A DNA stretch of 64,000 bases. Origin: a virus. Each line of letters starts with the position of its first letter. The first letter of the stretch is position 1. Both the position numbers and the translations under genes were made by a program. The stretch is taken from positions 1-64,000 of IMG/VR virus record IMGVR_UViG_3300029998_000013. One strand, 5' to 3'. Positions 19,745 to 32,842 of the stretch are shown here, in pieces. Below the pieces are notes generated by a model, which was not told where the DNA came from, ran no database searches, and saw only the letters and a list, made by a program, of their open reading frames with translations.

Positions 19745-19792
19745 TCTGAACAAAAAGTTTTAGCTAATTACTAGATTAGTTAATTGAAGATG

Positions 19793-19863
19793 GTGGGTTC
19801 ATCTAGAGGCCTAGGATTTAAGATTTTCAATCTTACCACACGGATTCGAATTCCGTACCCACT
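19793..19863 (+). tRNA. tRNA-Glu(UUC)
   Basis: Anticodon arm TAAGA-TTTTCAA-TCTTA and T arm ACGGA-TTCGAAT-TCCGT. Acceptor GTGGGTT pairs with TACCCAC except at one position. First tRNA of the array. Confidence 0.85.
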
Positions 19864-19921
19864 ACTAGTAGTTTAATCTATATTTTTCTTAATTTGAACT
19901 GTTTTATAATTTTATTTTTCG

Positions 19922-19929
19922 TACTTTTG
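19922..19929 (+). promoter_or_regulatory. Bacteroidota-type -7 box for an HNH gene
   Basis: TACTTTTG, 20 bases before the HNH start codon. Confidence 0.5.
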
Positions 19930-19949
19930 TATATCAAAAAAAATATATT

Positions 19950-20576
19950 ATGAGTAAGTACAAAAAAGAAGAATTAGAAAAGTTAATTTTTGAAGATAAA
20001 TTACCATACGACACCATTGGAGAATTATATGGTGTTACTGGAGCCTCAATTCGTAAGGCAGCAAATAGATTAGGCATAGAATTACCTAAACGAAGAGAAA
20101 TTAATCCAACTGAAACCTTTAATAAGGGTGTACGTAAAGTTGGAGAAATATGTTGTGAAAATTGTGGACAACCACTAAAGTCACATCAATTAAGATTTTG
20201 TAGTAGGCAGTGTAAAGCAGATTTTGAATATACATCGTTTATTCTACGTTGGCAAAATGGACAGGAAGAAGGTCTTTCTGGAAAAGATGGAATATCTGGT
20301 TATATTGAAAAATATGTAAGAATAAAACATAATAATAAATGTCAAAAATGTGGCTGGAATGCTGTAAATGAAAGTTCAGGTAAAGTTCCATTACATATTC
20401 ATCATGTTGATGGAGATTCACATAATAATCAAGAAGACAATTTAGAACTATTATGTCCTAATTGTCATAGTTTAACCGATAATTATGGTAGTTTAAACAA
20501 AGAAAGTACAAGAACTTCTTTAAAAGAATTAAGAGAGGTGATTAAATCTCGTAACTTAGAAGAAGTAATTAAATAA
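19950..20576 (+). CDS. Free-standing HNH homing endonuclease
   Basis: 208 aa. An N-terminal helix-turn-helix (KLPYDTIGELYGVTGASIRK) precedes a zinc-finger-like CENCGQPLK...FCSRQC unit and an HNH domain (CQKCGWNAV, HIHHVDGDSHNNQEDNLELL, CPNCHSLTDNYG). It sits between tRNA-Glu and tRNA-Met with its own promoter box, a typical site for a mobile endonuclease. Trp is encoded by TGG, unlike three other endonucleases in this window. Confidence 0.9.
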   Translation: MSKYKKEELEKLIFEDKLPYDTIGELYGVTGASIRKAANRLGIELPKRREINPTETFNKGVRKVGEICCENCGQPLKSHQLRFCSRQCKADFEYTSFILRWQNGQEEGLSGKDGISGYIEKYVRIKHNNKCQKCGWNAVNESSGKVPLHIHHVDGDSHNNQEDNLELLCPNCHSLTDNYGSLNKESTRTSLKELREVIKSRNLEEVIK

Positions 20577-20579
20577 ATC

Positions 20580-20651
20580 GTGGGGTAGTAGTAGTTGGTA
20601 ACTCGCTGTGCTCATAACTCAGAGATCGCCGGTTCGAGTCCGGCCCCCGCA
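20580..20651 (+). tRNA. tRNA-Met(CAU)
   Basis: Loop CTCATAA gives CAU. The T arm GCCGG-TTCGAGT-CCGGC is perfect. Three CAU tRNAs exist in the array; which one is the initiator or the lysidine-modified Ile tRNA cannot be fixed by eye. Confidence 0.85.
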
Positions 20652-20661
20652 ACTAATAAAA

Positions 20662-20735
20662 CGAATAGTAGGAAAGTTGATTAATCCGCTACATTTGGGA
20701 TGTAGAAATCGAAGGTTTGAGTCCTTCCTATTCGA
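20662..20735 (+). tRNA. tRNA-Pro(UGG)
   Basis: Acceptor CGAATAG/CTATTCG and anticodon arm CTACA-TTTGGGA-TGTAG. Confidence 0.9.
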
Positions 20736-20774
20736 CAATTGTTTTTTAATTAGATCCATTTTTTAAACCAGATT

Positions 20775-21800
20775 ATGAAAAAACTTATTCAGAACAACAC
20801 AACCTTCACTCTTGGAGAATTTACAGACATGCATGAAACACTTCCCGTTGGGAATTATGTTTTAAAGTTTGATGAACAAAAAGGAATCTTTTATCTTCAA
20901 GAACAAGAGCCTTTTGTGCTGCCTCCAAAGCTTTACGGAGACTTCTCTTTTATCGAAAGATGGAAGAAGTCTTATGTTGCTAATACGGGTAAAAACCTTG
21001 GTATTTTATTATCCGGTGTAAAAGGAACAGGTAAAACTATCTCTGCGCAGAAATTCTGCATAGAAATGGAAAAACCTGTAATCTTTATTACTGAGAATTA
21101 CTCAGGTCCAGGATTTGAATCCTTTATCACAAGTTCTCTGTTCAATGATTGTATCATCTTTATTGATGAATATGAAAAGTTGTATCAAGAGGATCGCGAT
21201 GAAGCTGAAAAGCTTTTGACTTTGATGGATGGTGTGTACAATACTCGCTTCATTTTCCTTTTGACAGTTAATGACCCTGATGCTATTTCTGACAAATTGA
21301 AGAATCGTTTGAATCGTGTGAAATACCACAAAGTCTTTGAAACATTGGAAAAATCTATTATTGACGGTATCGTTAATGATATGTTGGAAGATGAGCAGTT
21401 CAAAGATTCTATCTATGAATTCATTCTTCGCTTTGGATTCATTACTCCGGATATCTTGGTCACTTTGATTAAGGAAGTCAATTTCTTTAAAGAATCTGCT
21501 TTGGTCTGTGCTTCATACCTCAATTTGAGCTATGAAAGGGCTTATTACCAAATTAAGGTTGTTTACAAAGGCGAGCAACATTCTTGTGAATCTATGGAGT
21601 TAAATCCAATGGTTGATACATTCAGAATTAGCTTCTATGACGAAGTTCCGAAAGAGTTGACCAATACCTTGCCATATAAAATCAGGTTTAAAATGAGGGA
21701 TTATCCATTTACTCGCACTGAATCTGGTTATACTTTTGAGTACAATTCAGATATTCAAATCCAGCTTTCTACACATCAAAGACGTGCATTAGTATTCTAA
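20775..21800 (+). CDS. AAA+ ATPase
   Basis: 341 aa. Walker A is SGVKGTGKT near residue 85, Walker B is CIIFIDEYEK near residue 128, and sensor-1-like FLLTVND follows. The C-terminal third is beta-rich and unknown. It resembles CDC48/BCS1-type phage ATPases; three others with related cores occur at 9, 35220 and 58370. It sits inside the tRNA array, so a function in RNA or protein remodelling is possible but unproven. Confidence 0.8.
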   Translation: MKKLIQNNTTFTLGEFTDMHETLPVGNYVLKFDEQKGIFYLQEQEPFVLPPKLYGDFSFIERWKKSYVANTGKNLGILLSGVKGTGKTISAQKFCIEMEKPVIFITENYSGPGFESFITSSLFNDCIIFIDEYEKLYQEDRDEAEKLLTLMDGVYNTRFIFLLTVNDPDAISDKLKNRLNRVKYHKVFETLEKSIIDGIVNDMLEDEQFKDSIYEFILRFGFITPDILVTLIKEVNFFKESALVCASYLNLSYERAYYQIKVVYKGEQHSCESMELNPMVDTFRISFYDEVPKELTNTLPYKIRFKMRDYPFTRTESGYTFEYNSDIQIQLSTHQRRALVF

Positions 21801-21803
21801 GTT

Positions 21804-22141
21804 ATGGAAATCGCTGAAGAAGAAGTAAAGAAGTCTCTTGGTAATATAGCTAATATCAAGCTTGGCTTAACTGAGCCGATGAATATGAATTTTTCCTTGG
21901 AAACACTTCGTAATCTTACGCCCATGTGTGGAAAAAATGGTTCAGGAAAAACAATGGTCAATAAACTTATCTTCTTCTCATCTATGGTAACGCTGCTAAT
22001 AATCATAGAGATAATTATCGAGCAATCTGTTCTAATTGTGATTCACAGTTAGATACATATAAATCTAAAAATAAAAATGGTGCACGAAGTTATTATAGAT
22101 ATAATAAAGAAAATGGTGGAATAATTGGAAATGCGCAGGAA
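21804..22141 (+). pseudogene. Chimeric remnant: P-loop ATPase start joined to an HNH endonuclease tail
   Basis: The first 60 codons read like the beginning of an ABC/SMC-type ATPase (LTPMCGKNGSGKTM, Walker A). The homology then stops. In another frame, from about 21993, the sequence reads YGNAANNHRDNYRAICSNCD then SQLDTYKSKNK, the C-terminal half of an HNH endonuclease. The HNH frame ends at TAG 22142-22144, inside the next tRNA. This looks like an insertion followed by deletion that destroyed both genes. Confidence 0.6.
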
Positions 22142-22219
22142 TAGCACGTAATTGGAAGCGTATCACTCTTCTAAAGTGATGACTTTATGTCCTTGGGGGT
22201 TCGATCCCCTCTTCCTGTA
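22135..22219 (+). tRNA. tRNA-Arg(UCU) with enlarged variable region
   Basis: Anticodon arm TCACT-CTTCTAA-AGTGA and T arm GGGGG-TTCGATC-CCCTC. Acceptor GCAGGAA/TTCCTGT. The variable region is about 15 bases with a possible GAC/GTC mini-stem, unusual for Arg. Confidence 0.75.
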
Positions 22220-22229
22220 CACTATAAAT

Positions 22230-22301
22230 GGGCATATGGCCAAGTGGTAAGGCGTTTCTCTGCAAAAGAAATATGCGTCAGTCCGATTCTGACTATGCCC
22301 T
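22230..22301 (+). tRNA. tRNA-Cys(GCA)
   Basis: Acceptor GGGCATA/TATGCCC and anticodon arm TTTCT-CTGCAAA-AGAAA. Confidence 0.9.
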
Positions 22302-22306
22302 CATAT

Positions 22307-22380
22307 GCCGAAATAGCTCAGGTGGTTAGAGCGTTGGATTCATAACCCAGAGGTCACAAGTTCAAATCTTGTTTTCGGTA
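22307..22380 (+). tRNA. tRNA with CAU anticodon (Met or Ile2)
   Basis: Loop TTCATAA. Acceptor GCCGAAA/TTTCGGT. D arm AGCTCAGGTGGTTAGAGC. Confidence 0.85.
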
Positions 22381-22394
22381 CTAAATTTTTAACT

Positions 22395-22805
22395 ATGAAA
22401 TTTTCATTTGATTTTGATAGCACACTCTCAAGGAGATCTGTGCAACATATTGCTAAGTTACTTATTAAAGCTGGACACGAAGTTCACATTGTAACTAGTA
22501 GATATGAAGATACTGCTAAGTATGTTATGGCTGATTGTATTGGACAATGTCATGTTGACTTATTCAGAGTATCTGATCGTTTAGGTATTAAACGAGAAAA
22601 TATTCATTTTATGAATATGAAAGATAAATATCATTTCTTTTTAGAGAATCCTGATTTTGTATTTCATTTAGATGATGATGTCAAAGAAATATTACTTATA
22701 CAAGCTCAAACGGTTGTAATGGGAATATTATGTGATTATTCAGCTGAATGGAAAGATACAGTTGAGGAAGTATTTAAAAGACTTGAATTAGACCTGGCCC
22801 TTTAG
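22395..22805 (+). CDS. HAD-like hydrolase
   Basis: 136 aa. Motif I is FSFDFDSTL, motif II region HIVTSRYEDT, and the acidic motif is FHLDDDVKE. A small HAD phosphatase without cap, like phage nucleotidase-type enzymes. Its last three codons overlap the 5' end of tRNA-Arg(ACG), so processing of that tRNA would cut the mRNA. Substrate unknown. Confidence 0.7.
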   Translation: MKFSFDFDSTLSRRSVQHIAKLLIKAGHEVHIVTSRYEDTAKYVMADCIGQCHVDLFRVSDRLGIKRENIHFMNMKDKYHFFLENPDFVFHLDDDVKEILLIQAQTVVMGILCDYSAEWKDTVEEVFKRLELDLAL

Positions 22806-22868
22806 TTCAATCGAATAGAACAGTAGACTACGGATCTGTAGATACGGGTTTGACTCCTGTAGGGGTCA
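22796..22868 (+). tRNA. tRNA-Arg(ACG)
   Basis: Loop CTACGGA. Acceptor GGCCCTT/AGGGGTC with wobbles, T loop TTTGACT. It overlaps the end of the upstream CDS. Confidence 0.8.
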
Positions 22869-22877
22869 CAAAGAAAA

Positions 22878-23092
22878 AAGAATTTAGATTGAAGCAAACA
22901 GAACTTCAAGCCAATAACCCCTGATTCTTATTGGGATCAAGTTATAGCGAAGATGAAACCATATTTGCAGTATGGTTGGGTTTGTGTAAATATATGTTAT
23001 ATCCATACGGCTCTCAATTAGAGCATTGAACTCACTTGAAATTAATTCATATGAGGGATAGTATAATGTATTCACTGCAAGACTAAATTCTT
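22878..23092 (+). other. Structured spacer closed by a long-range stem
   Basis: No gene. AAGAATTTAG (22878-22887) pairs with CTAAATTCTT (23083-23092). Inside are hairpins CCAATAA/TTATTGG, ACCATA/TATGGT and GCTCT/AGAGC. It may help processing of the tRNA precursor or be a separate RNA. Confidence 0.4.
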
Positions 23093-23095
23093 CAC

Positions 23096-23169
23096 GGGGT
23101 ATTAGCTCAGTCGGCTAGAGCAATTGCTTTGCAAGCAATAGGTCAAGGGTTCAAGTCCCTTATGCTCCA
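23096..23169 (+). tRNA. tRNA-Ala(UGC)
   Basis: Anticodon arm ATTGC-TTTGCAA-GCAAT. Acceptor GGGGTAT/ATGCTCC with wobbles. Confidence 0.9.
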
Positions 23170-23170
23170 C

Positions 23171-23263
23171 AATACACGAATCAAAGAGATCATCACTGGC
23201 AATAAGTTTCCATGGTAGGTGCAACTTTTACAAACTAAATGCATTTAGTCCGATTCGTGTATT
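23171..23263 (+). other. Structured spacer with 12-bp closing stem
   Basis: AATACACGAATC pairs perfectly with GATTCGTGTATT. Inner hairpins AAGTT/AACTT and the self-complementary CTAAATGCATTTAG give a cloverleaf-like outline without an anticodon arm of standard form. Confidence 0.45.
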
Positions 23264-23338
23264 TCCAAGCATCTCCAAGATTTTCTGAGAATAATTGCAA
23301 ATCGTATGTTGCATTGGGTTCAAATCCCTTCTTGGGGA
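23263..23338 (+). tRNA. tRNA-like sequence, possible tRNA-Thr(CGU) with 8-base anticodon loop
   Basis: Acceptor TTCCAAG/CTTGGGG, D arm CTC/GAG, and T loop TTCAAAT are present. The anticodon stem TGCAA/TTGCA encloses eight bases, ATCGTATG, instead of seven. It could be a decayed tRNA or an expanded-loop tRNA. Confidence 0.45.
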
Positions 23339-23464
23339 CATTACAGCACGTTGCTGTATTAAAAATCGTAAAATTATGAAGAAAACGTAGATTTTCTTTG
23401 CTCGAGGTTCTCCTTGTTGTTTTAAATTAGAAAACTTAGTAATAACAATTTAAATTAAAACACA

Positions 23465-23770
23465 ATGAAAACTTTAAAAGGAGAAATAAAACAAATGTCA
23501 AAAGAACAAACGTTCTTAAAAGATCAAAGGAAGTCAGTGTATAATAAAAGTGAACGAGTAATGGAACCTTGGAAAGCTTCTTACAAACATAACTCAAATC
23601 GTGAAGATTTGCGTTTGATGTATGCAGCTTACGGTATCATGAGAGGAAGAACTTTTAGTCAAATTGAAAATACGCATCCAGAGGAGTCACATCCTTTGAG
23701 AGCATTTCAGAGAGATATTGACAAGTTAATTGAACAGTATGAACAAGAGGTTGTACATATTAGTGAGTAA
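23465..23770 (+). CDS. Hypothetical basic helical protein
   Basis: 101 aa, rich in Lys, Arg and Glu (KDQRKSVYNKSERVMEPWKA). About 120 bases of AT-rich leader precede it. Its 3' end overlaps the PTH2-like gene by 32 bases. No family is recognised. Confidence 0.6.
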   Translation: MKTLKGEIKQMSKEQTFLKDQRKSVYNKSERVMEPWKASYKHNSNREDLRLMYAAYGIMRGRTFSQIENTHPEESHPLRAFQRDIDKLIEQYEQEVVHISE

Positions 23771-24032
23771 TTCTTTAGAGCCAATCTATGCCTGTGTACA
23801 GGGCGGACACGCAGTAGCACAGTGGTTGTTGGACAATAAGGATACTCAAACATGGGATAACAATTACTTGATATATTTGTCCGCAGATATCGAGAAATGG
23901 TTATTTAAACTAAACTGTAAACAATTACGCTATTCTGTATTTAGGGAACCCGATCTCGGGAATGTGCCTACAGCAATAGCCATTGAATCAGACGGAACAT
24001 TGTTTCGTAATTTGAGATTAATGGGTGAATAA
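23739..24032 (+). CDS. PTH2-like peptidyl-tRNA hydrolase
   Basis: 97 aa. RLYILVSNSLEPIYACVQGG followed by HAVAQWLLD matches the PTH2 core, in which the early Gly-His segment and surrounding residues shape the active site. FREPDLGNVPTAIAIE matches the later conserved block. PTH2 frees tRNA from prematurely released peptides, and its place inside the tRNA array fits that role. ATG 23739 is preferred over TTG 23730. Confidence 0.7.
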   Translation: MNKRLYILVSNSLEPIYACVQGGHAVAQWLLDNKDTQTWDNNYLIYLSADIEKWLFKLNCKQLRYSVFREPDLGNVPTAIAIESDGTLFRNLRLMGE

Positions 24033-24196
24033 CCCAAAAAGTAGTAACTCTGAATTGACAGGGTAAATAATAACGAGGTCGTGGGATATGTTACGTACAG
24101 TATGGCATATTAGGAAAAGGTAGATGAAACAAGAGCTGTAAGACACGTGGAATCTGGTAATTATTGTTTGGGGAAACCCTATTATTTTTTTTAAAT
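24033..24196 (+). other. Non-coding spacer between PTH2-like gene and amber tRNA
   Basis: About 160 bases without a gene. A hairpin ATATG/CATAT near 24089-24113 and a GGG-GAAA-CCC hairpin followed by ATTATTTTTTTT (24170-24193) that may be a weak terminator. Confidence 0.35.
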
Positions 24197-24270
24197 GGTC
24201 TTTTAGCTCAGTGGCCCAGAGCGACGGCTTCTAGTCCCGTGCGTCGTGGGTTCGAATCCCATAGAGACCA
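24197..24270 (+). tRNA. Suppressor-type tRNA(CUA) reading UAG
   Basis: A canonical cloverleaf: acceptor GGTCTTT/AGAGACC, D stem GCTC/GAGC, anticodon stem ACGGC/CCCGT with a C-C mismatch at 31-39, loop TTCTAGT giving anticodon CUA, variable GCGTC, T arm GTGGG-TTCGAAT-CCCAT, discriminator A. It would decode amber codons. Phages using UAG as Gln carry such tRNAs. The amino acid cannot be read here, and a normal tRNA-Gln(UUG) is also present. Confidence 0.85.
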
Positions 24271-24314
24271 CAAGGTTTTCGTCCCTCCTCCTTTCCACAA
24301 GTGAGGGACACTAT

Positions 24315-24389
24315 GCACTTTTAGCTCAGCTGGTTCAGAGCATATCCCTTACAAGGATGGGGTCGGGGGTTCGAATCCCTCAAGGTGTA
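24315..24389 (+). tRNA. tRNA-Val(UAC)
   Basis: Loop CTTACAA, stem TATCC/GGATG. Acceptor GCACTTT/AAGGTGT with wobbles. Confidence 0.88.
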
Positions 24390-24408
24390 CAAATTTTATA
24401 CTAAAGTT

Positions 24409-24522
24409 ATGAAAAAGAAAGATTCTTTAGTCAAGTTTATATTTATGCATATTGCAATATATTTACTTGTAATTGGCTTGGTGTTATTCGCAGTTATTTA
24501 TTTATTAAGTTTAAAGACATGA
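24409..24522 (+). CDS. Tiny membrane protein
   Basis: 37 aa: a basic start MKKKDSLVKF then one hydrophobic span of about 25 residues. TGA stop overlaps the next ATG (ATGA), which supports translation. Function unknown. Confidence 0.5.
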   Translation: MKKKDSLVKFIFMHIAIYLLVIGLVLFAVIYLLSLKT

Positions 24523-24725
24523 AGATTAACATGCTTTTATATTTAATTCCTATCTTTGGAATTGGATATTTAATTTACATGGCCAATAAATATGGGTGGA
24601 CAACAAAGATACAGAATTCCTGGTGGATGATGTGGCCGTCTACTCTTTGGCATAGCGCAACGACTTGGTATCTAATGGTATCTATAGTCCTACAACAATT
24701 TAATCCACTATTGTGGATTCACTAA
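24519..24725 (+). CDS. Small Trp-rich membrane protein
   Basis: 68 aa, with a hydrophobic helix at residues 4-22 and a second at about 48-66 rich in Trp (NSWWMMWPSTLWH). Coupled to the tiny membrane protein before it. Trp codons are TGG. Function unknown. Confidence 0.6.
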   Translation: MKINMLLYLIPIFGIGYLIYMANKYGWTTKIQNSWWMMWPSTLWHSATTWYLMVSIVLQQFNPLLWIH

Positions 24726-24741
24726 CATAGTTAGTAACAAT

Positions 24742-24816
24742 GCTCCTCTAGCTCAGTTGGTTTAGAGCAACAGACCTTTAATCTGTGGGTCCTGGGTTCA
24801 ACTCCCAGGGGGAACA
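24742..24816 (+). tRNA. tRNA-Lys(UUU)
   Basis: Anticodon arm ACAGA-CCTTTAA-TCTGT and T arm CTGGG-TTCAACT-CCCAG. The acceptor has one C-A mismatch. Confidence 0.88.
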
Positions 24817-24835
24817 CAAACTTAATTTAAAAACG

Positions 24836-25069
24836 ATGGCAACATTAAAAGAACTTGTAAAAGATGGAAAGGCAACATTCAGTCATGCAATTGCTGGAGT
24901 ATTGTATTACAGATTGGAAAGTCCAGTAGGTAATTATCAATTTCCAATTGACATGAATGATCGTGCGGATGTAGGTACGACTACATTTGTTGCTGAGTAC
25001 AAGGCTATTACGCTTATGCGATATATTCGCAAAGCAATGGATAGTGAAAATTTAATTAAAATTTTGTAA
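24836..25069 (+). CDS. Hypothetical protein
   Basis: 77 aa: MATLKELVKDGKATFSHAIA, then YYRLESPVGNYQFPID. The first 50 codons of the longer open frame lie in tRNA-Lys, so ATG 24836 is the start. Family unknown, though this type of small protein is common in phages. Confidence 0.6.
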   Translation: MATLKELVKDGKATFSHAIAGVLYYRLESPVGNYQFPIDMNDRADVGTTTFVAEYKAITLMRYIRKAMDSENLIKIL

Positions 25070-25070
25070 T

Positions 25071-25319
25071 ATGACAGAATTAGAAAAATTTCAGTTAGTC
25101 AACACATGTAATACATGTAAAGAACTCGAAGATGCTATTATCTTGATTGGACAAGAGAATGATGGTATGCTTCAAGGACGTACTCATTCCTTTAATGCAG
25201 AGAGTATGGCAAAATGTGTGGAACCTATTGTTAATAATGCAATGTGGCCTAATTACTTAACTAGGTCTTATGGTATTAGACAACAAGCTTTGTATCTTAA
25301 GTATTACTTAAACTTGTAA
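25071..25319 (+). CDS. Hypothetical protein
   Basis: 82 aa, helical, with CNTCKELEDAIILIGQ near the start. One-base gap after the preceding gene indicates coupling. Family unknown. Confidence 0.6.
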   Translation: MTELEKFQLVNTCNTCKELEDAIILIGQENDGMLQGRTHSFNAESMAKCVEPIVNNAMWPNYLTRSYGIRQQALYLKYYLNL

Positions 25320-25325
25320 CAAAAC

Positions 25326-25408
25326 GCGTACTTAGTCAAGTGGCCGACGACGGTGGTCTCCAAAACCATTAGGGCAACCTCACGTGGGTTCGAATCCTAC
25401 AGTGCGTG
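25326..25408 (+). tRNA. tRNA-Trp(CCA) with a class II-type variable arm
   Basis: Acceptor GCGTACT/AGTGCGT, anticodon arm GTGGT-CTCCAAA-ACCAT giving CCA, T arm GTGGG-TTCGAAT-CCTAC, discriminator G. The variable region is about 14 bases with AGG/CCT pairing, as in Ser/Leu/Tyr tRNAs and not in normal tRNA-Trp. Confidence 0.75.
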
Positions 25409-25424
25409 CTTAAAGAATGAAAAG

Positions 25425-25724
25425 ATGAATAGAGAAACTCACGGTTTTACCGATGAAATGTTAGAGCTATACAGAAAAGTATTTCCAGAGCAGAATGCTT
25501 CTGCAGAACAACTAGAATATTTTGCTTGGCCAGAACTATTTTGCAGTACATCAGGTCCTTATGGAGGAATCGGTGGTGCAGTAATGACAACATTTACTGT
25601 TGAAGCTTTTTATAATGGTGTATATGGAACTACACTATATGTATGTTTAAGTACTTATCAAAAAGGTACAACGAAATTTGAACCCTTTAAAGTCCTTTCT
25701 TCTGTATGGACACGCTTTACTTAA
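25425..25724 (+). CDS. Hypothetical protein
   Basis: 99 aa: GFTDEMLELYRKVFPEQNAS and a Gly-rich TSGPYGGIGGAVMTTFTVEA core. The longer frame upstream lies in tRNA-Trp, so ATG 25425 is chosen. Family unknown. Confidence 0.6.
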   Translation: MNRETHGFTDEMLELYRKVFPEQNASAEQLEYFAWPELFCSTSGPYGGIGGAVMTTFTVEAFYNGVYGTTLYVCLSTYQKGTTKFEPFKVLSSVWTRFT

Positions 25725-25726
25725 CT

Positions 25727-25921
25727 ATGAGAGAAATAATCCTACAACGAATTGAAGAGATGAAAGAACATGAAAGAGATTTTGCACCAAGTTCAATGAG
25801 GTGGCAAATGACTCTTATCAATGGAGTTCATATCTCTGTATGTGATTTTAGTAAGTTAACTGATGTAGAATTAGTAACTGCTTTTGAAAGAATTTGTCAA
25901 CGTTATTATAGACAGTATTAA
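25727..25921 (+). CDS. Hypothetical protein
   Basis: 64 aa, acidic and helical. Start ATG 25727 follows the previous stop by two bases; ATG 25706 inside the previous gene is possible. Confidence 0.55.
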   Translation: MREIILQRIEEMKEHERDFAPSSMRWQMTLINGVHISVCDFSKLTDVELVTAFERICQRYYRQY

Positions 25922-25922
25922 G

Positions 25923-26195
25923 ATGAAATCAAAACACATTGAAGCAGGGCCTTGCCCTACTTGCGGTAAAAAATTGGATGGCTTGACCAATCCAGTAGAT
26001 GATGACTTGGACCAACAACCAGGTGATGTTTCCATTTGTTTCCATTGTGGTACAATTTTAGTCTTTAATGAAAACTTAGAGCTTGTGCCTTGTTCAGATG
26101 AAAATTTAGAAGAGTTAGATGAAGATTCAAGAGTACTAATCTTTGCGATTAGGGAAGCAATTTTAGCCCAGAGAAATAATAGAACAGGTAATTAA
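25923..26195 (+). CDS. Zinc-ribbon protein
   Basis: 90 aa. CPTCGKKLDG and ICFHCGTILV form a four-Cys zinc ribbon at residues about 10-45. The tail is acidic and helical. Start chosen one base after the previous stop. Confidence 0.65.
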   Translation: MKSKHIEAGPCPTCGKKLDGLTNPVDDDLDQQPGDVSICFHCGTILVFNENLELVPCSDENLEELDEDSRVLIFAIREAILAQRNNRTGN

Positions 26196-26244
26196 AGAAT
26201 CAGCAATTAATTTAATTGCAGAAGAAAGAAAACGTCAAATTGAG

Positions 26245-26472
26245 GTGGAAGGATGGACAGCTGAGCATGATGATGAATACATTCATGGAGAGTTGGTTAC
26301 AGCAGCAGTTTGTTATGTTTTAGAAGATCATACTTTTGCTCAAGCCTTATGGCCTTGGGATCTTACATGGTGGAAACCCTCTCCAGATGACCGTATTAAA
26401 GAACTCAAAAAAGCAGCTGCTTTGATAGCTGCAGAAATTGATCGTTTAATTAGATTAGAAGATAAAAAATAA
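26245..26472 (+). CDS. Small phage protein of the EGW...GEL..AA type
   Basis: 75 aa from GTG 26245. VEGWTAEHDDEYIHGELVTA and WPWDLTWWKP are typical of a widespread family of small phage proteins of unknown function. In-frame family-like sequence (INLIAEERKRQI) lies upstream of the GTG without ATG, GTG or TTG, so the real start may be a rare ATT/ATA codon near 26190. Confidence 0.6.
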   Translation: MEGWTAEHDDEYIHGELVTAAVCYVLEDHTFAQALWPWDLTWWKPSPDDRIKELKKAAALIAAEIDRLIRLEDKK

Positions 26473-26831
26473 TGAAAAAGACATTGCTCTGGCTAGATGA
26501 TGCAAGGAATCCTCTTGAAGATGATTGGCTTGTATTTAGTCCTATTGGTAAAGATGTCCATGTAGAGTGGGTAATGACCCAAATGGAGTTCCAAGATTGG
26601 ATTATGATTAACGGATTACCAGATGCTATATGTTTTGATCATGATTTAGGTACTGGAAATGGAGATGGTTATGAATGTGCAAAATTTTTATGTGAATACT
26701 GTTTTGTACACAAATTACCATTACCTTTGTATTCTTCACAATCAGCGAATGCTGTAGGACGTGAAAATATTGTTTCTTATCTTGAAAACTATAAGAAACA
26801 TTGTGAACTACCTAAGCCGTCTGATGGTTAA
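26472..26831 (+). CDS. Cyclic-phosphate-processing receiver-domain protein (cpRD)
   Basis: 119 aa. LLWLDDARNP, ICFDHDLGTGNGDGYECAKF and YSSQSANAVGRENI follow the pattern of receiver-like domains linked to RNA 2',3'-cyclic phosphate processing. It starts in the stop codon of the previous gene. In a tRNA island this suggests repair of cleaved tRNAs, together with the HAD phosphatase at 17410. The role is inferred. Confidence 0.7.
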   Translation: MKKTLLWLDDARNPLEDDWLVFSPIGKDVHVEWVMTQMEFQDWIMINGLPDAICFDHDLGTGNGDGYECAKFLCEYCFVHKLPLPLYSSQSANAVGRENIVSYLENYKKHCELPKPSDG

Positions 26832-26922
26832 CTGACGGATGCCTGAGAGCACTGCTCTCGTACATTTTGATGCTTTTGAACTCTTAAAATAAAAGCACAT
26901 GGCACGTTTACTTGTGTAACAA

Positions 26923-26950
26923 CCGTAACCTTTAGAAAGTTACGGTTTAC
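26923..26950 (+). terminator. Hairpin before tRNA-Phe
   Basis: CCGTAAC (26923-26929) pairs with GTTACGG (26939-26945), followed by TTTAC. The weak U run leaves terminator or processing hairpin open. Confidence 0.45.
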
Positions 26951-26952
26951 TT

Positions 26953-27025
26953 GGACTCTAAGCTAATCTGGTGAAAGCGTGTGCCTGAAGAGCACGAGAG
27001 TTCGGATCGAAACCGGAAGAGTCCA
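26953..27025 (+). tRNA. tRNA-Phe(GAA)
   Basis: Acceptor GGACTCT/AGAGTCC and anticodon arm TGTGC-CTGAAGA-GCACG. Confidence 0.9.
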
Positions 27026-27026
27026 C

Positions 27027-27497
27027 ATGCCAAGTTTAATAGACAAATTTAACGATGATGAATTTAGATTATTAGTAGCAGAAAGTATTTCTATTACTGA
27101 TATTGCTAAATCACTTGGGTACAAGTCTAAGGGAGGTGCTGTAACAGGTGTTATTAAAAAGAGAATAGATAAATTAAGCGTAAATACATCCCATTTCTCA
27201 AAATACTCTATAAAAAATACAGAGAATAGAAATAAACCTTTAGATGAAATATTAGTTGAAAATTCAACATATACTAACAATACATCACTAAAGAAAAGAT
27301 TGTTATCAGAAGGACTAAAAACATATGCATGTGAAGTTTGCAATATATCTACTTGGTTAAGTAAACCATTATCTTTACAATTAGACCCTATGAATGGAAT
27401 AAATACTGATAATAGGTTAGAAAATTTACGATTAATATGTCCTAATTGTCATTCACAAACAGAAACTTTTTCTGGTAGGAATGCATCACATAATTAA
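27027..27497 (+). CDS. HNH homing endonuclease
   Basis: 156 aa. An N-terminal recognition helix (SITDIAKSLGYKSKGGAVTG) precedes the HNH fold: CEVCNISTWL, LQLDPMNGINTDNRLENLRL, ICPNCHSQTETF. It starts one base after tRNA-Phe and is followed by a fragment of a tRNA 3' end, so it probably arrived with a flanking tRNA piece. Trp is TGG here. Confidence 0.85.
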   Translation: MPSLIDKFNDDEFRLLVAESISITDIAKSLGYKSKGGAVTGVIKKRIDKLSVNTSHFSKYSIKNTENRNKPLDEILVENSTYTNNTSLKKRLLSEGLKTYACEVCNISTWLSKPLSLQLDPMNGINTDNRLENLRLICPNCHSQTETFSGRNASHN

Positions 27498-27502
27498 TAT
27501 AA

Positions 27503-27533
27503 AGTAGGTGGGTTCGATCCCGCATTTCCCACA
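27503..27533 (+). pseudogene. 3' fragment of a tRNA after the HNH gene
   Basis: GTAGGTGGGTTCGATCCCG resembles a T arm, and TTTCCCACA a 3' acceptor end. No matching 5' half is found upstream, since the HNH gene occupies that place. A remnant of homing is the likely cause. Confidence 0.5.
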
Positions 27534-27548
27534 AACACCTTTAATTGA

Positions 27549-27841
27549 ATGAAAATGAAAAAAACTATTGTTAGTATTGTGTCTTGGTTTGTTCTTGTTC
27601 AGCTCTTGCGCTGAAAAGAAAACACTTAAAGACAGAAATGGAAAAGAATTTCTGGCTCGTCCTTATGGATTATTGAATCCTAGTGCTGAAGCCGATAGCG
27701 TAGTCTATGAAGCAAGTATGGGCACCATTCTTTGTAGTGTTGTGTTTGTAGAAACAATCTTTGCTCCGGTTTGGGGTTTGGGGTTTAGGTTGAGGGCTAT
27801 ACGAACCTGTGGGTTATAAAATACCTGATAAGGAAAAATAA
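27549..27841 (+). pseudogene. Frame-disrupted lipoprotein gene
   Basis: The middle frame reads MLVLCLGLFLFSSCAEKK, a signal peptide with lipobox FSSC, then DRNGKEFLARPYGLLNPS. The ATG-led start (27549) is in a different frame, across an A7 run. A third frame continues after about 27795 with YEPVGYKIPDKEK then TAA. Two indels therefore split one about 95-codon lipoprotein. Either the gene is decayed or homopolymer errors exist in the assembly. Confidence 0.55.
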
Positions 27842-27876
27842 TGCTTAGTGGGGGAGCTTTGTATAGCCCCACATCT

Positions 27877-27960
27877 GGAAATGTGGCAGAGTGATCTATC
27901 GCGCTGCTCTTGAAAAGCAGAGGACCTACGGGTTCCGGGGGTTTGAATCCCTCCGTTTCC
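27877..27960 (+). tRNA. tRNA-Ser(UGA)
   Basis: Acceptor GGAAATG/CGTTTCC, anticodon arm CTGCT-CTTGAAA-AGCAG, long variable arm, discriminator G. Confidence 0.9.
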
Positions 27961-27985
27961 GCAAAATTAACTTAATCTATATTTT

Positions 27986-28465
27986 ATGGCTTATAGCTAT
28001 CATGAAAGAACAATATCTAACTTAGGATATACTATAGATAAAGAAGGTAATTGTTATAATTCTAAGGGTAAGTTACTTAAAGGAACTATAGCTAATACTG
28101 GTTATCGTGTTGTTAGCACAACAATTGATGGCAAAACTATAAAGATAGGATTACATAGATTTCAAGCATATCAGAAATATAATGATGAAATCTATAAAGA
28201 AGAAAATGAGGTAAGACATTTAAACGGTATTAGAAATGATAATTCATGAGATAATATTGAAATAGGTACTCATTCAGATAACATATTAGATATTCCTCAA
28301 GATATCAGAATTAGGGTTGCAAAAAATGCGTCTACGAAGTATGATCAAAAATTAGTTGATGAAATAAAACATGATAAAGAATTAGGCCCTTCTTATAATC
28401 AAATTATGGTTAAATATAATATTAGTAGTAAAGGGACAATTAGTTATATTATTAATCAACGATAA
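27986..28465 (+). CDS. NUMOD/HNH homing endonuclease with an in-frame TGA
   Basis: 159 aa if TGA 28247-28249 is read as Trp. Upstream: LHRFQAYQKYNDEIYK and VRHLNGIRNDNS. Downstream in the same frame: DNIEIGTHSDNILDIP, then a C-terminal helix-turn-helix and TAA. In this family the motif is H.NG...DNR.W.NLE.GT, with Trp exactly where TGA stands. Without readthrough the HNH domain is cut and inactive. No TGG occurs in the gene. Confidence 0.75.
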
Positions 28466-28468
28466 ACT

Positions 28469-28554
28469 GGAGAAGACAACCTGTGGGGAATAGGGCTTGC
28501 CTGCTAAGCAATGCGCTCATTTACATGAGTTCGTGTCGGACACGAGTTTCTCCG
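28469..28554 (+). tRNA. tRNA-Ser(GCU)
   Basis: Acceptor GGAGAAG/TTTCTCC, loop CTGCTAA, and a long variable arm GCTCAT/ATGAG. The T arm (TCGTG/CACGA) has a short atypical loop. Confidence 0.75.
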
Positions 28555-28670
28555 CATATAGAAAGAAGGGAGTAACAACGCAAGTTGACTTTGAAAATCC
28601 AACCCGATAATATTGCTCTCTCTGTGAATTCTTTTAATCCACGTTTCTTTGTCAAGTAAATGGGAGTCAT

Positions 28671-28744
28671 GCGCATTTAGCTCAGTTGGTTAGAGCACCA
28701 CACTGATAATGTGGGGGTCCCAAGTTCAAGTCTTGGATTGCGCA
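28671..28744 (+). tRNA. tRNA-Ile(GAU)
   Basis: Anticodon arm CCACA-CTGATAA-TGTGG. Acceptor GCGCATT/ATTGCGC with one mismatch. Confidence 0.9.
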
Positions 28745-28761
28745 CAATTAAAACCTTAGAT

Positions 28762-28911
28762 ATGGGAACATTTATAGTTATTGGAATGTTTATGTTGTTT
28801 TTTATACTATTTTTTCGAGGTATGGAGAACATAGGTCGGTATAATCATGCCGAAGATAAAGCAATCGAAAAAGAATTAGAGGAGTTAAATAAATTAAAAA
28901 TTAAAGAATAA
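28762..28911 (+). CDS. Small membrane-anchored protein
   Basis: 49 aa: one N-terminal membrane helix (about residues 3-20) and a charged helical tail (KAIEKELEELNKLK). Its stop overlaps the next ATG. Confidence 0.55.
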   Translation: MGTFIVIGMFMLFFILFFRGMENIGRYNHAEDKAIEKELEELNKLKIKE

Positions 28912-29177
28912 TGACGCTAGGAGAAATTCACCAGATAATGAGAGAAGCCGGCTTCACTTATTTTGATGGTTATAGTGGTACAGACGATAAGGTTTATATC
29001 ACTTTTTCAAAAGGTTACAATGGACGAGGAGACGCGATTGAATTTCACTTTAATCCTGGTTCTATAACCATTAAAACCTACTATCAAGATGAAGATAGTA
29101 AAGACTACTTAGAGTACACTCATTATAATGCTTCAATCGCATTGAAGAATATATTGAATGCGCATAAGAGTAGTTAA
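28911..29177 (+). CDS. Hypothetical protein
   Basis: 88 aa, with FTYFDGYSGTDDKVYITFSK and alternating beta-type segments. Coupled by a one-base overlap to the membrane protein before it. Family unknown. Confidence 0.6.
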   Translation: MTLGEIHQIMREAGFTYFDGYSGTDDKVYITFSKGYNGRGDAIEFHFNPGSITIKTYYQDEDSKDYLEYTHYNASIALKNILNAHKSS

Positions 29178-29184
29178 ATTCATC

Positions 29185-29258
29185 GGGCCTGTAGCTCAGT
29201 GGTAAGTAGCAACTGACTCATAATCAGGAGGTCGGGGGATCATTACCCTTCGGGCCCA
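29185..29258 (+). tRNA. tRNA with CAU anticodon (Met or Ile2)
   Basis: Acceptor GGGCCTG/CGGGCCC and anticodon arm ACTGA-CTCATAA-TCAGG. The third CAU tRNA of the array. Confidence 0.85.
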
Positions 29259-29272
29259 CAAATTTTAAAAAT

Positions 29273-29689
29273 ATGAAAGAAAAATTTACACCTTACGAAT
29301 TAGCAATAAAGTTAAAAGAAGCTGGCTTTGATGAAGGAGTTTTTGCTTACTTCAATACAACATCTGACACGCCTTCTGAATTACAATTTCCAGAATATGG
29401 TGGCGAAGTTGATAATTGGAATCAAACGACACATATTGTTTCAGCTCCATTATGGCAGCAAGCAATAGATTGGATTAGAGAAAAACATAAATTAATGATA
29501 GATTCACCAAAACCAGACCAATGGAATCAGGATAGCTGGTCTGTTAGAATTGAGAGTATGGACAAAACGATTGTCCTTGAAGCATATGTTGATCAAGAAT
29601 ATTGGAGAATATATAGATGTCACAAATCATATCAAGAAGCAAGAGAACAATCTATTCTAAAAGCATTAGAACTAATTAATAAAGAATAA
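29273..29689 (+). CDS. Conserved phage-type hypothetical protein
   Basis: 138 aa: YELAIKLKEAGFDEGVFAYF, then APLWQQAIDWIREKHKL. This arrangement recurs in many Bacteroidota phage and prophage proteins without known function. Trp is TGG throughout. Confidence 0.65.
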   Translation: MKEKFTPYELAIKLKEAGFDEGVFAYFNTTSDTPSELQFPEYGGEVDNWNQTTHIVSAPLWQQAIDWIREKHKLMIDSPKPDQWNQDSWSVRIESMDKTIVLEAYVDQEYWRIYRCHKSYQEAREQSILKALELINKE

Positions 29690-29690
29690 T

Positions 29691-29801
29691 ATGAGATACT
29701 TTTTAGGAACATCAATGTTTTTAATGATTTACTTCGGACAACCTCGATATCCTCAAAATCTCGTGGTTCATGTTGAAAATCATATTCTTATTTCCGAATA
29801 A
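29691..29801 (+). CDS. Tiny hypothetical protein
   Basis: 36 codons beginning MRYFLGTSMFLMIYFGQ, weakly hydrophobic at the N-terminus. It fits exactly between two features. Existence is plausible, function unknown. Confidence 0.35.
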   Translation: MRYFLGTSMFLMIYFGQPRYPQNLVVHVENHILISE

Positions 29802-29806
29802 GATAT

Positions 29807-29889
29807 GCCTGTATAGCAAAGTGGCCAAACGCGTCTGACTGTAACTCAGATTCCTTACGGATTCAGAGGTTCAAATCCTTTTGCAGGCA
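29807..29889 (+). tRNA. tRNA-Tyr(GUA)
   Basis: Anticodon arm TCTGA-CTGTAAC-TCAGA, long variable arm as in bacterial tRNA-Tyr, acceptor GCCTGTA/TGCAGGC. Confidence 0.9.
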
Positions 29890-29974
29890 CAAACACTCAG
29901 AGGGTTAACTGAGTTATCAAAGAGTATCATAAAGTGAGTTATCTCTTTTACGATCAAAAAATAGCTATATTAGG

Positions 29975-30048
29975 ACACATTTGAGAATTAAGTCGGGTTG
30001 TTCCCGCAGGTCGAATTACCTGGGTCAATTATTCAAATTAAAATGTGT
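29975..30048 (+). other. Structured spacer closed by ACACATTT/AAATGTGT
   Basis: Hairpins CGGG-TTGTT-CCCG and a T-arm-like CAGGT-CGAAT-TACCTG lie inside the closing stem. The right strand also starts an alternative hairpin GTGTAGCAAG/CTTGCTACAC (30045-30073), so two folds exclude each other. Confidence 0.4.
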
Positions 30049-30079
30049 AGCAAGAGTAATTAACTTGCTACACACACTT

Positions 30080-30152
30080 GCCCCTGTAGCTCAGTGGCCA
30101 GAGCGGCACTTTTGTAAAGTGCGGGCCGGCGGTTCGATCCCGTCCAGGGGCT
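30080..30152 (+). tRNA. tRNA-Thr(UGU)
   Basis: Acceptor GCCCCTG/CAGGGGC and anticodon arm GCACT-TTTGTAA-AGTGC. Confidence 0.92.
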
Positions 30153-30169
30153 CAATTAAATTTATAGAT

Positions 30170-30406
30170 ATGGAAAAGACAATTGAAGAAGTAAAGAAAG
30201 AATTACTTGATAATGTTATTATAACGACGCCAAGTAGAGCTTTCGCAGGAGGGCAGAGTTGTGGAATGGTGGATTGGTCAGTTAAACTTTATCAAGGGGA
30301 TTTAGACATTACAATTTCTATTGGAAATTTCCATAGCATTCGTGAGAATAAAAGTTTGGCTATGACTTTAATGGAATTAGCTATTGATGAAGTAATTAAA
30401 GATTAA
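30170..30406 (+). CDS. Hypothetical protein
   Basis: 78 aa: MEKTIEEVKKELLDNVIIT, then GGQSCGMVDWSVKLYQGDLD. The longer frame upstream is tRNA-Thr and spacer, so ATG 30170 is used. Family unknown. Confidence 0.6.
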   Translation: MEKTIEEVKKELLDNVIITTPSRAFAGGQSCGMVDWSVKLYQGDLDITISIGNFHSIRENKSLAMTLMELAIDEVIKD

Positions 30407-30407
30407 T

Positions 30408-30836
30408 ATGGATAATGATTTAAAAACCTCAGTTGAATGGCAAAGATTGTGTCCTTCTCCTAAAGTTATTGGCTTTGAGGGATGGAATGGTGAAGACCAA
30501 TGGCAAAATGTTGAGATGTCTTATCTAGAATATCAACAAAGAGTGTTTCTAAGTACTTGTGCATTTATTAGTTTATCGCCATCAATAAGAGTTATTCCAG
30601 AGTATGGAACTCCAGGAGGTCTGGTATCAGGAACTGAATTATTAACACAAATTCTGGAAAGAGATGCTAGGACATCCCAAATAATGGCTAATACTGCTGT
30701 TATGAGCCCTCCAGATTTTCTAGGATTATTACACGATGTTCCAGCACCATCAAGAACAGATCCTCAAATTATTTCTAGTGCTGAGAGAAAAAGGATTAGA
30801 GAACAAATAGAAAGATTATGTGGGGACAGGGAATAA
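30408..30836 (+). CDS. Hypothetical protein
   Basis: 142 aa, with a Pro-rich middle (SPSIRVIPEYGTPGG) and a charged helical end (SSAERKRIREQIERLC). One-base gap to the gene before and overlap with the gene after. Family unknown. Confidence 0.6.
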   Translation: MDNDLKTSVEWQRLCPSPKVIGFEGWNGEDQWQNVEMSYLEYQQRVFLSTCAFISLSPSIRVIPEYGTPGGLVSGTELLTQILERDARTSQIMANTAVMSPPDFLGLLHDVPAPSRTDPQIISSAERKRIREQIERLCGDRE

Positions 30837-30964
30837 AAGGAGATTTTGATGTTCTTCAATTTTTGAAGGACGAGGGTTATTTAGTTGATGAAGAAGTCGA
30901 TGAAATTGTAGATGACGATGAAAATGACGATTATTGGGAAAAATTATGGGACGTGAGTTCATAG
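30818..30964 (+). CDS. Small acidic protein
   Basis: 48 aa: MWGQGIKGDFDVLQFLKDEG followed by an Asp/Glu-rich tail. Overlaps both neighbours by about 20 bases, a pattern common in this region. Function unknown. Confidence 0.45.
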   Translation: MWGQGIKGDFDVLQFLKDEGYLVDEEVDEIVDDDENDDYWEKLWDVSS

Positions 30965-31110
30965 AAAAACAATTTAGAAGTGAAGTTGAGATGCTTAAAT
31001 TTATTCAAGATCCCAAAAGAGTTGCTAAAGTGAGAGAAAAGTATCCATCTGATAAATATGTATCAAGAATGGATTTTGATAAGAGACAGTTAATTATTAC
31101 AGAGAAATAA
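30946..31110 (+). CDS. Small basic protein
   Basis: 54 aa: MGREFIEKQFRSEVEMLKFI, then KRVAKVREKYPSDKYVSRMD. Oppositely charged to the overlapping acidic gene, so the two may form a pair. Function unknown. Confidence 0.45.
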   Translation: MGREFIEKQFRSEVEMLKFIQDPKRVAKVREKYPSDKYVSRMDFDKRQLIITEK

Positions 31111-31116
31111 GTAGAT

Positions 31117-31200
31117 GCCTAAGTGGCGAAATTTGGTTATACGCGTATGCCTTAGGAGCATATGTCTTGCGACGTGTCGGTTCGAGTCCGACCTTGGGTA
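31117..31200 (+). tRNA. tRNA-Leu(UAG)
   Basis: Anticodon arm TATGC-CTTAGGA-GCATA, long variable arm, T arm GTCGG-TTCGAGT-CCGAC. Confidence 0.9.
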
Positions 31201-31211
31201 CTTAAAACCTT

Positions 31212-31601
31212 ATGATTATGAAAACAGTTATTGTAGAAAACACATTTTTAAAAAGACAGTATGATATTCCAGATGAAAAGCCTATTATAATGGACTTTGG
31301 TTGGGGTAATGGTTATGCTCTTATTCCAATTGATCATCCATTATTTGGACGACACTATGATGATATCAATGAACATATTGATATTCATGGTGGTCTTACT
31401 TTTAGTGCTTTTGTAAATGAAGGTTTGATTCAAAGCTTCGGGATTGATCCAGAATATGATGGTTACTGGTGTGTTGGTTTTGACACGTGTCATTATCAAG
31501 ATACATTAGCAAGATGGCCAAAAGAAGCTGTTCAAATAGAAGCAGATGAGTTAGCTCGTCAATTAGAATTATTTGAGGTTGCTTGGAATAACAACTTATA
31601 A
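31212..31601 (+). CDS. Conserved phage-type hypothetical protein
   Basis: 129 aa: DFGWGNGYALIPIDHPLFG, then FDTCHYQDTLARWPKEAVQI. The same layout is common in phages and mobile elements, function unknown. An ATG at 31218 is an alternative start. Confidence 0.65.
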   Translation: MIMKTVIVENTFLKRQYDIPDEKPIIMDFGWGNGYALIPIDHPLFGRHYDDINEHIDIHGGLTFSAFVNEGLIQSFGIDPEYDGYWCVGFDTCHYQDTLARWPKEAVQIEADELARQLELFEVAWNNNL

Positions 31602-31650
31602 AAATTGCTCGAGGAGAAGCATATAGGATGAAAATCTCATCTCCCAACTC

Positions 31651-31723
31651 GCGGGAATAGCTCAATTGCTAGAGTGCCTCTCTTCCAAAGAGGAAGTTGT
31701 CGGTTGGAACCCGGTTTCCCGCA
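31651..31723 (+). tRNA. tRNA-Gly(UCC)
   Basis: Acceptor GCGGGAA/TTCCCGC and anticodon arm CCTCT-CTTCCAA-AGAGG. Confidence 0.92.
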
Positions 31724-31725
31724 CA

Positions 31726-31814
31726 ATAAGGTTCAGAATTCAACACTGGAAAACTAATTAAATTTATTCCAGGTCTTAGCGTTTACGCAAGTAAGAATAA
31801 AAACAAAGCCTTAT
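31726..31814 (+). other. Structured spacer closed by ATAAGGTT/AAGCCTTAT
   Basis: Inner hairpins CTGGAA/TTCCAG and CTTAGCG/CGC..TAAG give a three-way-junction outline about the size of a tRNA, without a usable anticodon loop. Confidence 0.4.
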
Positions 31815-31820
31815 CTCCAT

Positions 31821-31895
31821 GGTGTTTATAGTGTTAGCGGATAGCACGGAAGTTTGTGGAGCTTTTAGGTACAGTTCGAATCTGTATAGACACCC
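31821..31895 (+). tRNA. tRNA-His(GUG)
   Basis: Acceptor GGTGTTT/AGACACC, loop TTGTGGA, and C at the discriminator position as expected for His. Confidence 0.88.
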
Positions 31896-31911
31896 AATTA
31901 ATTAAAAAAAT

Positions 31912-32526
31912 ATGGCATATATTTATTGTATTACAAATCAAATTAATCAAAAGAAATATGTAGGTAAATCTACTAGTTGTATTGAACAAAGATGAGCTGA
32001 GCATTGTAGAGATGCAAGAAAAGAAAGATGTGAGAAAAGACCTCTATATAATGCTATACAAAAATATGGAGTTGAAAGTTTTCAAATTGAACTATTAGGG
32101 AAATATTCTGAAATAGATTTAGATTTCTATGAAAATTATTGAATTTGTGAACTAGATACATATAAAAATGGTTATAATGCCACTTTAGGAGGAGACGGAG
32201 CTATATTATTTGATTATAAATTAATTGTAGATACTTATAATCAAACAAAATGTACTCGAAGGACTTCAGAAATAATTGGCTGCTGTCTTGATACTATAAG
32301 AAAAGTATTAACTTTATATAATATAAATTTTAATACTAAAGAAGTAGTTCAATTAAATGGAGAAATTATTATTAATTCATTTAAATCTATTACAGAAGCT
32401 TCTGAATGAATTTTTAATGAGGGCATATCTAAAGCTGCTTTAAGAAGCATATCTTCAAAAATTAGTGCAAATTGTAAAGGAAAAACAAAGTCAGCATTTA
32501 AAGATGAGTGAAGATATTTGGATTAA
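31912..32526 (+). CDS. GIY-YIG homing endonuclease with four in-frame TGA codons
   Basis: 204 aa if TGA is Trp. The nuclease domain begins MAYIYCITNQINQKKYVGKS, continues with IEQR-[TGA]-AEH and YENY-[TGA]-ICEL, then YKNGYNATLGGDGA. The C-terminal NUMOD-type part has TEASE-[TGA]-IF and KDE-[TGA]-RYLD before TAA. TGA lies at 31993, 32140, 32407 and 32509. All four positions are Trp in GIY-YIG/NUMOD relatives, and no TGG occurs in the gene. Under the standard code it is broken into pieces. Confidence 0.8.
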
Positions 32527-32688
32527 TCCCATTAATCACCCAGTGTGCCAAGTAAAGCCTCTTATTGAGAAATACAATAACGTAACTTGTCTAGATAGTC
32601 TTAGTATGGTGCACCAACTAAGTAACAACGCTCTAGAAAACAAACAGGCTCAAGGGAGGTCTTTAGTGGTGAAAGCCATTCCCTACTA

Positions 32689-32762
32689 CGGGGATATAGT
32701 TCATCGGCTAGAACGTTTGACTGTTAATCAAAGAAGAGTGGTTCGATTCCATTTATCCCCGC
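32689..32762 (+). tRNA. tRNA-Asn(GUU)
   Basis: Acceptor CGGGGAT/ATCCCCG and anticodon arm TTTGA-CTGTTAA-TCAAA. Confidence 0.9.
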
Positions 32763-32770
32763 AAATAAAT

Positions 32771-32842
32771 TGTCCTATAGTGTAGTGGTAACTACGTCAG
32801 TTTTTGGAGCTGAAATCCTAGGTTCGAATCCTGGTGGGACAA
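32771..32842 (+). tRNA. tRNA-Gln(UUG)
   Basis: Acceptor TGTCCTA/TGGGACA (U1-A72 as in Gln) and anticodon arm TCAGT-TTTTGGA-GCTGA. Confidence 0.9.

Follow-up and report, generated by a model that had tools for sequence, protein, structure and literature searches.

A tRNA with a stop-codon anticodon and a gene for a Pth2-fold protein form a conserved cassette in phages that may control suppression of genuine stop codons

The window, the whole stretch of DNA that we analyzed, comprises bases 1-64000 of a virus record of 178,320 bases (about 178 kb). Over the whole genome, genes run rightward to ~70 kb and leftward from ~71 to 161 kb. The phage is crAss-like (Crassvirales) by the relatedness of its TerL and portal: both match crAss-like phage families in PHROG (TerL at 3e-63), and tblastn with TerL retrieves crAss-like phages, crAss001 among them. 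A search of the phage collection for DNA similar to the structural region found nothing. A near-identical strain (L008) carries the same CUA tRNA. The features that the following discussion needs are these:

19792..33585, plus strand: array in which 25 tRNAs cover all 20 amino acids and CUA; the cassette lies inside it (ARAGORN)
23465..23770, plus strand: ORF of 101 aa that overlaps the start of the Pth2-like gene; a possible third cassette gene
23739..24032, plus strand: gene for a protein of about 97 aa with the Pth2 (peptidyl-tRNA-hydrolase-like) fold, ending in TAA and with no in-frame stop (homolog profile, AlphaFold model)
24197..24271, plus strand: tRNA with the amber-reading anticodon CUA, the tRNA half of the cassette (ARAGORN; Rfam RF00005)
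25326..25409, plus strand: tRNA-Trp (CCA) with a long variable arm (ARAGORN, feature comparison)
genome 161242-161337 (= L006:17242-17337), minus strand: tRNA with anticodon UCA, a putative UGA reader (neighborhood and loop shared with relatives)

The cloverleaf tRNA with anticodon CUA that a preliminary description of this DNA had pointed out is found by both ARAGORN and Rfam (RF00005, 55 bits, E 4e-9). It is a normal cloverleaf with A73 and no encoded CCA, and its body is closest in sequence to phage tRNA-Phe and tRNA-Lys. It has two oddities, a C31.C39 mismatch in the anticodon stem and a G37 beside A36, and these could make this particular tRNA weak. Features of tRNA-Pyl are a 6-bp anticodon stem, a small D-loop and a 3-nt variable loop. 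This architecture is absent here, the CUA tRNA having an ordinary D-loop with GG, a 5-nt variable loop and a 5-position anticodon stem; the "Pyl" label given by ARAGORN derives from the anticodon alone. We also considered that the tRNA is an Arg-UCU tRNA read in a shifted frame, which was ruled out on spacing. Elsewhere in the array, tRNA-Arg(UCU) at 22135-22220 and tRNA-Trp(CCA) have long variable arms, which are unusual for these isotypes; a long-armed tRNA-Trp is likewise present in the related genome G002.

The Pth2-like gene lies 164 nt upstream of the CUA tRNA. An alignment profile of its homologs matches PF01981 PTH2 and PDB Pth2 chains; PF01981 is matched by 12/16 homologs individually (best 1e-8) and not by the window protein alone. 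The AlphaFold model of the window protein, with a mean pLDDT of 94.7, aligns to Pth2 structures (bit1, AF2095, Sulfolobus Pth2 and others) with Z of about 11, far over unrelated rows. By its model, the window protein has the Pth2 fold. The catalytic residue of Pth2 is the Lys of the GKxAAQ motif. In the alignment to 2zv3, this Lys is present in 0/114 lineages scored, its place being taken mostly by Tyr or Gln; hydrolase activity is therefore not assured. Since a search of 84,980 species genomes gave only 2 matches, no host source was found for the partner. In two contigs (L174 and L223), an extra N-terminal domain is fused to the Pth2-like domain, and by eye it resembles the ORF at 23465-23770.

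The preliminary description had taken the window for the early, standard-code part of a phage whose structural genes, outside it, would be rich in in-frame TAG. Its division of the genome holds: the window is the early, standard-code part of this 178-kb crAss-like phage, and late genes outside it are recoded. The codon was misidentified, since the recoded one is UGA (=Trp). When coding density was compared across codes, as had been suggested, ORF coverage over 70-155 kb rose from about 0.55-0.8 to 0.9-1.0 with TGA as sense and changed little with TAG as sense. The phage's own TerL contains 8 in-frame TGA and 0 TAG, and its TGA sites fall in columns where relatives without TGA mostly have Trp. 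Among about 45 related TerL genes, nearly all have 4-13 TGA and 0 TAG. Trp is encoded by 220 TGA vs 60 TGG in late genes, and by 0 TGA vs 16 TGG in the eight genes heading the leftward block (Fisher p 1e-10); recoding therefore begins at about TerL. The head of the leftward block (genome 154620-161557, minus strand) carries PhoH-like (by eye), exonuclease and endolysin-like genes; its use of TGG only for Trp makes a sharp recoding boundary against nearly all genes from TerL on.

UAG, in turn, is a true stop in this phage. It terminates 11/45 late genes and, in the early set of plus-strand ORFs of 80 aa or more, 12/103, two of the twelve overlapping tRNA genes. These roughly dozen early ORFs bear out the earlier remark that genes in the window end in TAG, and they include those at 17859, 36623, 51988 and 55043; the one cited at 11343 lies outside this ORF set. 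One TAG stop is itself conserved among relatives, tandem backup stops after TAG are not enriched, and alignment with relatives revealed no in-frame TAG in conserved genes. Raw blast matches with in-frame TAG were antisense or shadow frames, and 0 remained inside a gene once the search was limited to real genes. Because UAG keeps its stop function, recoding is not done by the CUA tRNA; with TAG stops in use and conserved genes free of in-frame TAG, it is without a visible target gene here. The reading in which the phage recodes UAG and its CUA tRNA translates in-frame UAG of late structural genes draws on the presence of this tRNA and on the many crAss-like phages that do so (PMC7886860), but the coverage, the stops of late genes and the TerL relatives all speak against it, and we give it almost no credence. 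No matches to RF1/RF2-like or TrpRS/TyrRS-like genes were found in the genome.

The UGA codons of the late genes are probably decoded as Trp by the UCA tRNA at 161242-161337. In relatives, a UCA tRNA with the loop CTTCAAA or similar lies upstream of TerL. The tRNA of this phage has a perfect anticodon stem, G73, an encoded CCA and a long variable arm, and it has G1-U72, C2-G71, G3-C70 and G73 in common with the tRNA-Trp at 25326..25409. That odd CCA tRNA-Trp was itself considered as the UGA reader and was dropped because the UCA tRNA occupies the same neighborhood as in relatives. The UCA tRNA of this phage and of relatives, L047, L051 and L069 among them, varies in form, being short and ordinary in most relatives and long-armed and Ser/Sec-like in some. 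In L047 and L069 the long-armed UCA tRNAs are Sec- or Ser-like, yet most TGA sites fall here too at Trp or at another aromatic residue. A tmRNA gene is called in G008, a related crAss-like contig (L104:3292-3659, minus strand).

Several further features were seen in the window. Neighboring adenylosuccinate-synthetase-like and IMP dehydrogenase/GMP reductase genes (11349-12449 and 12863-13915) recall phage purine-modification (PurZ-type) pathways, and a 775-aa protein encoded at 5629-7956 in the early region has an SPFH/Band-7 domain. A group I intron is matched at 15115-15344 (98.5 bits), and a second match at 57567-57766 (48.2 bits) falls just below the cut-off.

The association of the CUA tRNA with the Pth2-like gene extends far beyond this phage. 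Viral contigs were searched for CUA tRNAs and 80 loci were examined. In the initial scan, the window protein had a same-strand homolog upstream of the tRNA at 18/80. A Pth2-like gene lies within 2 kb at 36/80 CUA loci vs 0/80 matched Arg-UCU loci searched with the same profile (Fisher p=1.7e-13), and gene and tRNA share the strand in 36/36 linked loci. Scans from the protein side, which were blind to tRNAs, found 343 and 175 relatives, of which the best 80 each were kept. For the first seed, grouping at 80% identity reduces the best 80 relatives to 61 viral lineages. In 52/61 (46 CUA, 4 UCA, 2 UUA), the tRNA nearest to the gene carries a stop anticodon, and in 43/61 a tRNA of this kind lies within 500 nt downstream on the same strand. 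For a second, more distant seed, 36/54 lineages among the best 80 relatives have a stop-anticodon tRNA within 3 kb and 18/54 do not. Because the protein seeds were first chosen beside CUA tRNAs, and so came from some of the tested loci, part of this linkage evidence is not independent. Within the phage's own clade, both cassette genes are present in this genome (G000) and G003, and neither is present in G001 or G002. The cultured mycobacteriophages IkeLoa and ScoobyDoobyDoo carry a "peptidyl tRNA hydrolase" followed directly by tRNA(cta). The IkeLoa protein matches 198 phage records; tRNA neighbors were examined in IkeLoa and ScoobyDoobyDoo only. Linkage and anticodon bias show that the CUA tRNA belongs to a widespread, conserved two-gene phage cassette with a Pth2-fold partner. 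It is possible that the ORF at 23465..23770 is a third gene of this cassette.

PTH2 genes are known from jumbo phages and from the tRNA arrays of mycobacteriophage cluster C (PMC7824862, PMC5966550); they have the fold in common with the window protein, and the cluster C members are its relatives. These papers propose general ribosome rescue, and their available text mentions no association with stop-anticodon tRNAs and no in-frame stop. Following that proposal, the partner might be a general ribosome-rescue or tRNA-maintenance gene that lives in tRNA arrays, its link to stop anticodons being incidental. We consider this quite improbable: it does not account for the empty Arg-UCU control, for the stop anticodons closest to the gene in most lineages among the best 80 relatives, or for loci in which the stop-anticodon tRNA is the sole tRNA of the stretch.

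We also compared the anticodon of the cassette tRNA with the code of the phage. In the recoded phages tested, it reads a stop other than the reassigned one: CUA in the UGA-recoders (this phage and G019), UCA in the UAG-recoders G033, G034 and G035 and in G023, probably a UAG-recoder but less clear, and UUA in the UAG-recoder G036. The Lak phages, in which we take UAG to be the recoded codon, have a UUA tRNA near a Pth2-like gene; that they are alternatively coded is stated in PMC8346664. Unrecoded phages have CUA, or UCA/UUA in G030, G037, G024 and G038. Since the cassette tRNA avoids the reassigned stop, action on true stops is favored, and the anticodons argue that the tRNA would act on genuine stop codons.

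The partner gene itself may respond to this activity in some lineages. Among the best 80 relatives per scan, 15/116 lineages (about 13%) carry one in-frame stop in the partner gene (13 UAG, 1 UGA, 1 UAA), which is the stop cognate to the cassette tRNA in 14/116. The exception is the UAA case (L274), whose contig has only a CUA tRNA and which does not fit the cognate pattern. G019 was left out of this count, its TGA at a conserved Trp being ordinary recoding. Ten of the UAG share one site, in the loop that joins helix 1 to W40. Of the contigs concerned, seven were surveyed across tens to hundreds of kilobases and show no UAG recoding, and TAG-ended ORFs with long extensions show no enrichment over other stops in the in-frame-UAG contigs. 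In-frame stops were likewise absent from TerL of cassette phages (13 matches), TerL being the only recoding test for some CUA-linked contigs. In L515, the contig with the in-frame UGA, two UCA tRNAs are present and UGA is not recoded, and in a 203-kb contig (L558) the one tRNA detected is CUA, on the same strand. In the L230/L232/L234 group of closely related copies, dN is well below dS downstream of the UAG, which indicates translation beyond the stop. In a weakly supported tree of this short protein, about ten switches between the gated and the ungated form are required. The window's own partner gene has no in-frame stop, so that this member, in its present form, is not gated.

Suppressor tRNAs without targets are a recognized puzzle in phages (PMC5852040 for XacN1; PMC12386605 for zeta crAss-like phages), and an incipient code change was proposed for them in PMC7886860 and was discussed and doubted in PMC12386605. 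The CUA tRNA could accordingly be an idle passenger, either a leftover of some former code change or a recent mutant, and functionless now. This would suit a genome without a target gene and a tRNA with G37 and a damaged anticodon stem. It is hard to reconcile with the tight same-strand link to a single protein family in many unrelated phages, cultured mycobacteriophages included, with the avoidance of the recoded codon and with the cognate stops in partner genes, and we hold it to be unlikely.

Based on these observations, we propose a mechanism for the cassette, that is, a Pth2-fold gene followed by a tRNA that reads a codon still serving as a genuine stop in the phage. During infection, the CUA tRNA would suppress termination at UAG. 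The hydrolase-like partner would then act on the resulting peptidyl- or aminoacyl-suppressor tRNA, and so limit suppression or clean up after it. In the many relatives whose partner gene contains the cognate stop, this stop may serve as a suppression sensor, full-length partner being made only when the suppressor tRNA works; gated partner and tRNA would thereby form a feedback loop. Aminoacylation, readthrough in vivo, hydrolysis and feedback are steps that we infer. That the stop-anticodon tRNA suppresses genuine stops and the Pth2-fold partner limits this suppression is the reading toward which we lean. We see about even chances for the wider proposal, that the cassette is a new phage translation-control module, a self-limiting nonsense-suppression switch in which synthesis of the partner is gated by the same stop, found in many large phages, whichever genetic code they use.

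As for the purpose of suppression, the main rival is compatible with the same parts. RelE, an A-site nuclease, has a preference for UAG codons. The cassette could be an anti-host weapon or a counter-defense, in which the tRNA causes readthrough of host stops or occupies stop codons against such UAG-preferring nucleases, the partner protects or recycles phage tRNAs and the in-frame stop restricts the partner to suppressing cells. A tRNA directed at genuine stops under any phage code would agree with this, and suppressor tRNAs were proposed earlier as anti-defense factors (PMC7886860, PMC12386605); Pth is known to cleave acetylated aminoacyl-tRNA (PMC9241777). The host target is, however, hypothetical, and the in-frame stop is not predicted by counter-defense alone. 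We regard this purpose as a serious but tentative alternative, and continue with self-limiting suppression as the preferred reading.

The proposed logic would be the mirror image of release factor 2 autoregulation. Release factor 2, whose gene is termination-related, is autoregulated by a programmed frameshift at an in-frame stop that senses its own function. The cassette would be like it in sensing through an in-frame stop, but by way of suppression from the adjacent tRNA and not of frameshifting, and its protein has a predicted Pth2 fold. In the pyrrolysine and selenocysteine systems, a stop-anticodon tRNA is genetically linked to dedicated proteins. The cassette resembles them in this linkage but lacks tRNA-Pyl architecture, and its linked protein has a putative Pth2 fold and is not a synthetase. 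The closest described phages are zeta crAss-like phages with an "unused" suppressor tRNA-CTA, for example Lera (PMC12386605): they are alike in their size of about 180 kb, opal (UGA=Trp) late recoding, tRNA array and amber tRNA without in-frame UAG. Our phage resembles the zeta group, or proposed Echekviridae, in size, recoding and tRNA array only. PMC12386605 lists an aminoacyl-tRNA hydrolase gene too. The role of the amber tRNA in Lera-type phages was left open there, whereas our scans link the amber tRNA of many phages with a Pth2-like partner. Phage PTH2 and target-less suppressor tRNAs are thus each known (PMC7824862, PMC5966550, PMC5852040, PMC6102473, PMC12386605, PMC7886860). In the open-access literature, we found no report of the pairing of phage PTH2 with a suppressor tRNA or of the in-frame stops, and the cassette is apparently undescribed.

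For annotation, these results would carry a warning: finding a stop-anticodon tRNA in a phage does not alone show that the phage is recoded. The link to one partner family, together with real stops, sets these suppressor tRNAs apart from changes of the genetic code and opens their role to testing, and since cultured mycobacteriophages carry the cassette, it can be tested in them. If gating works as the sequences imply, the cassette would be a compact, self-limiting nonsense-suppression circuit.
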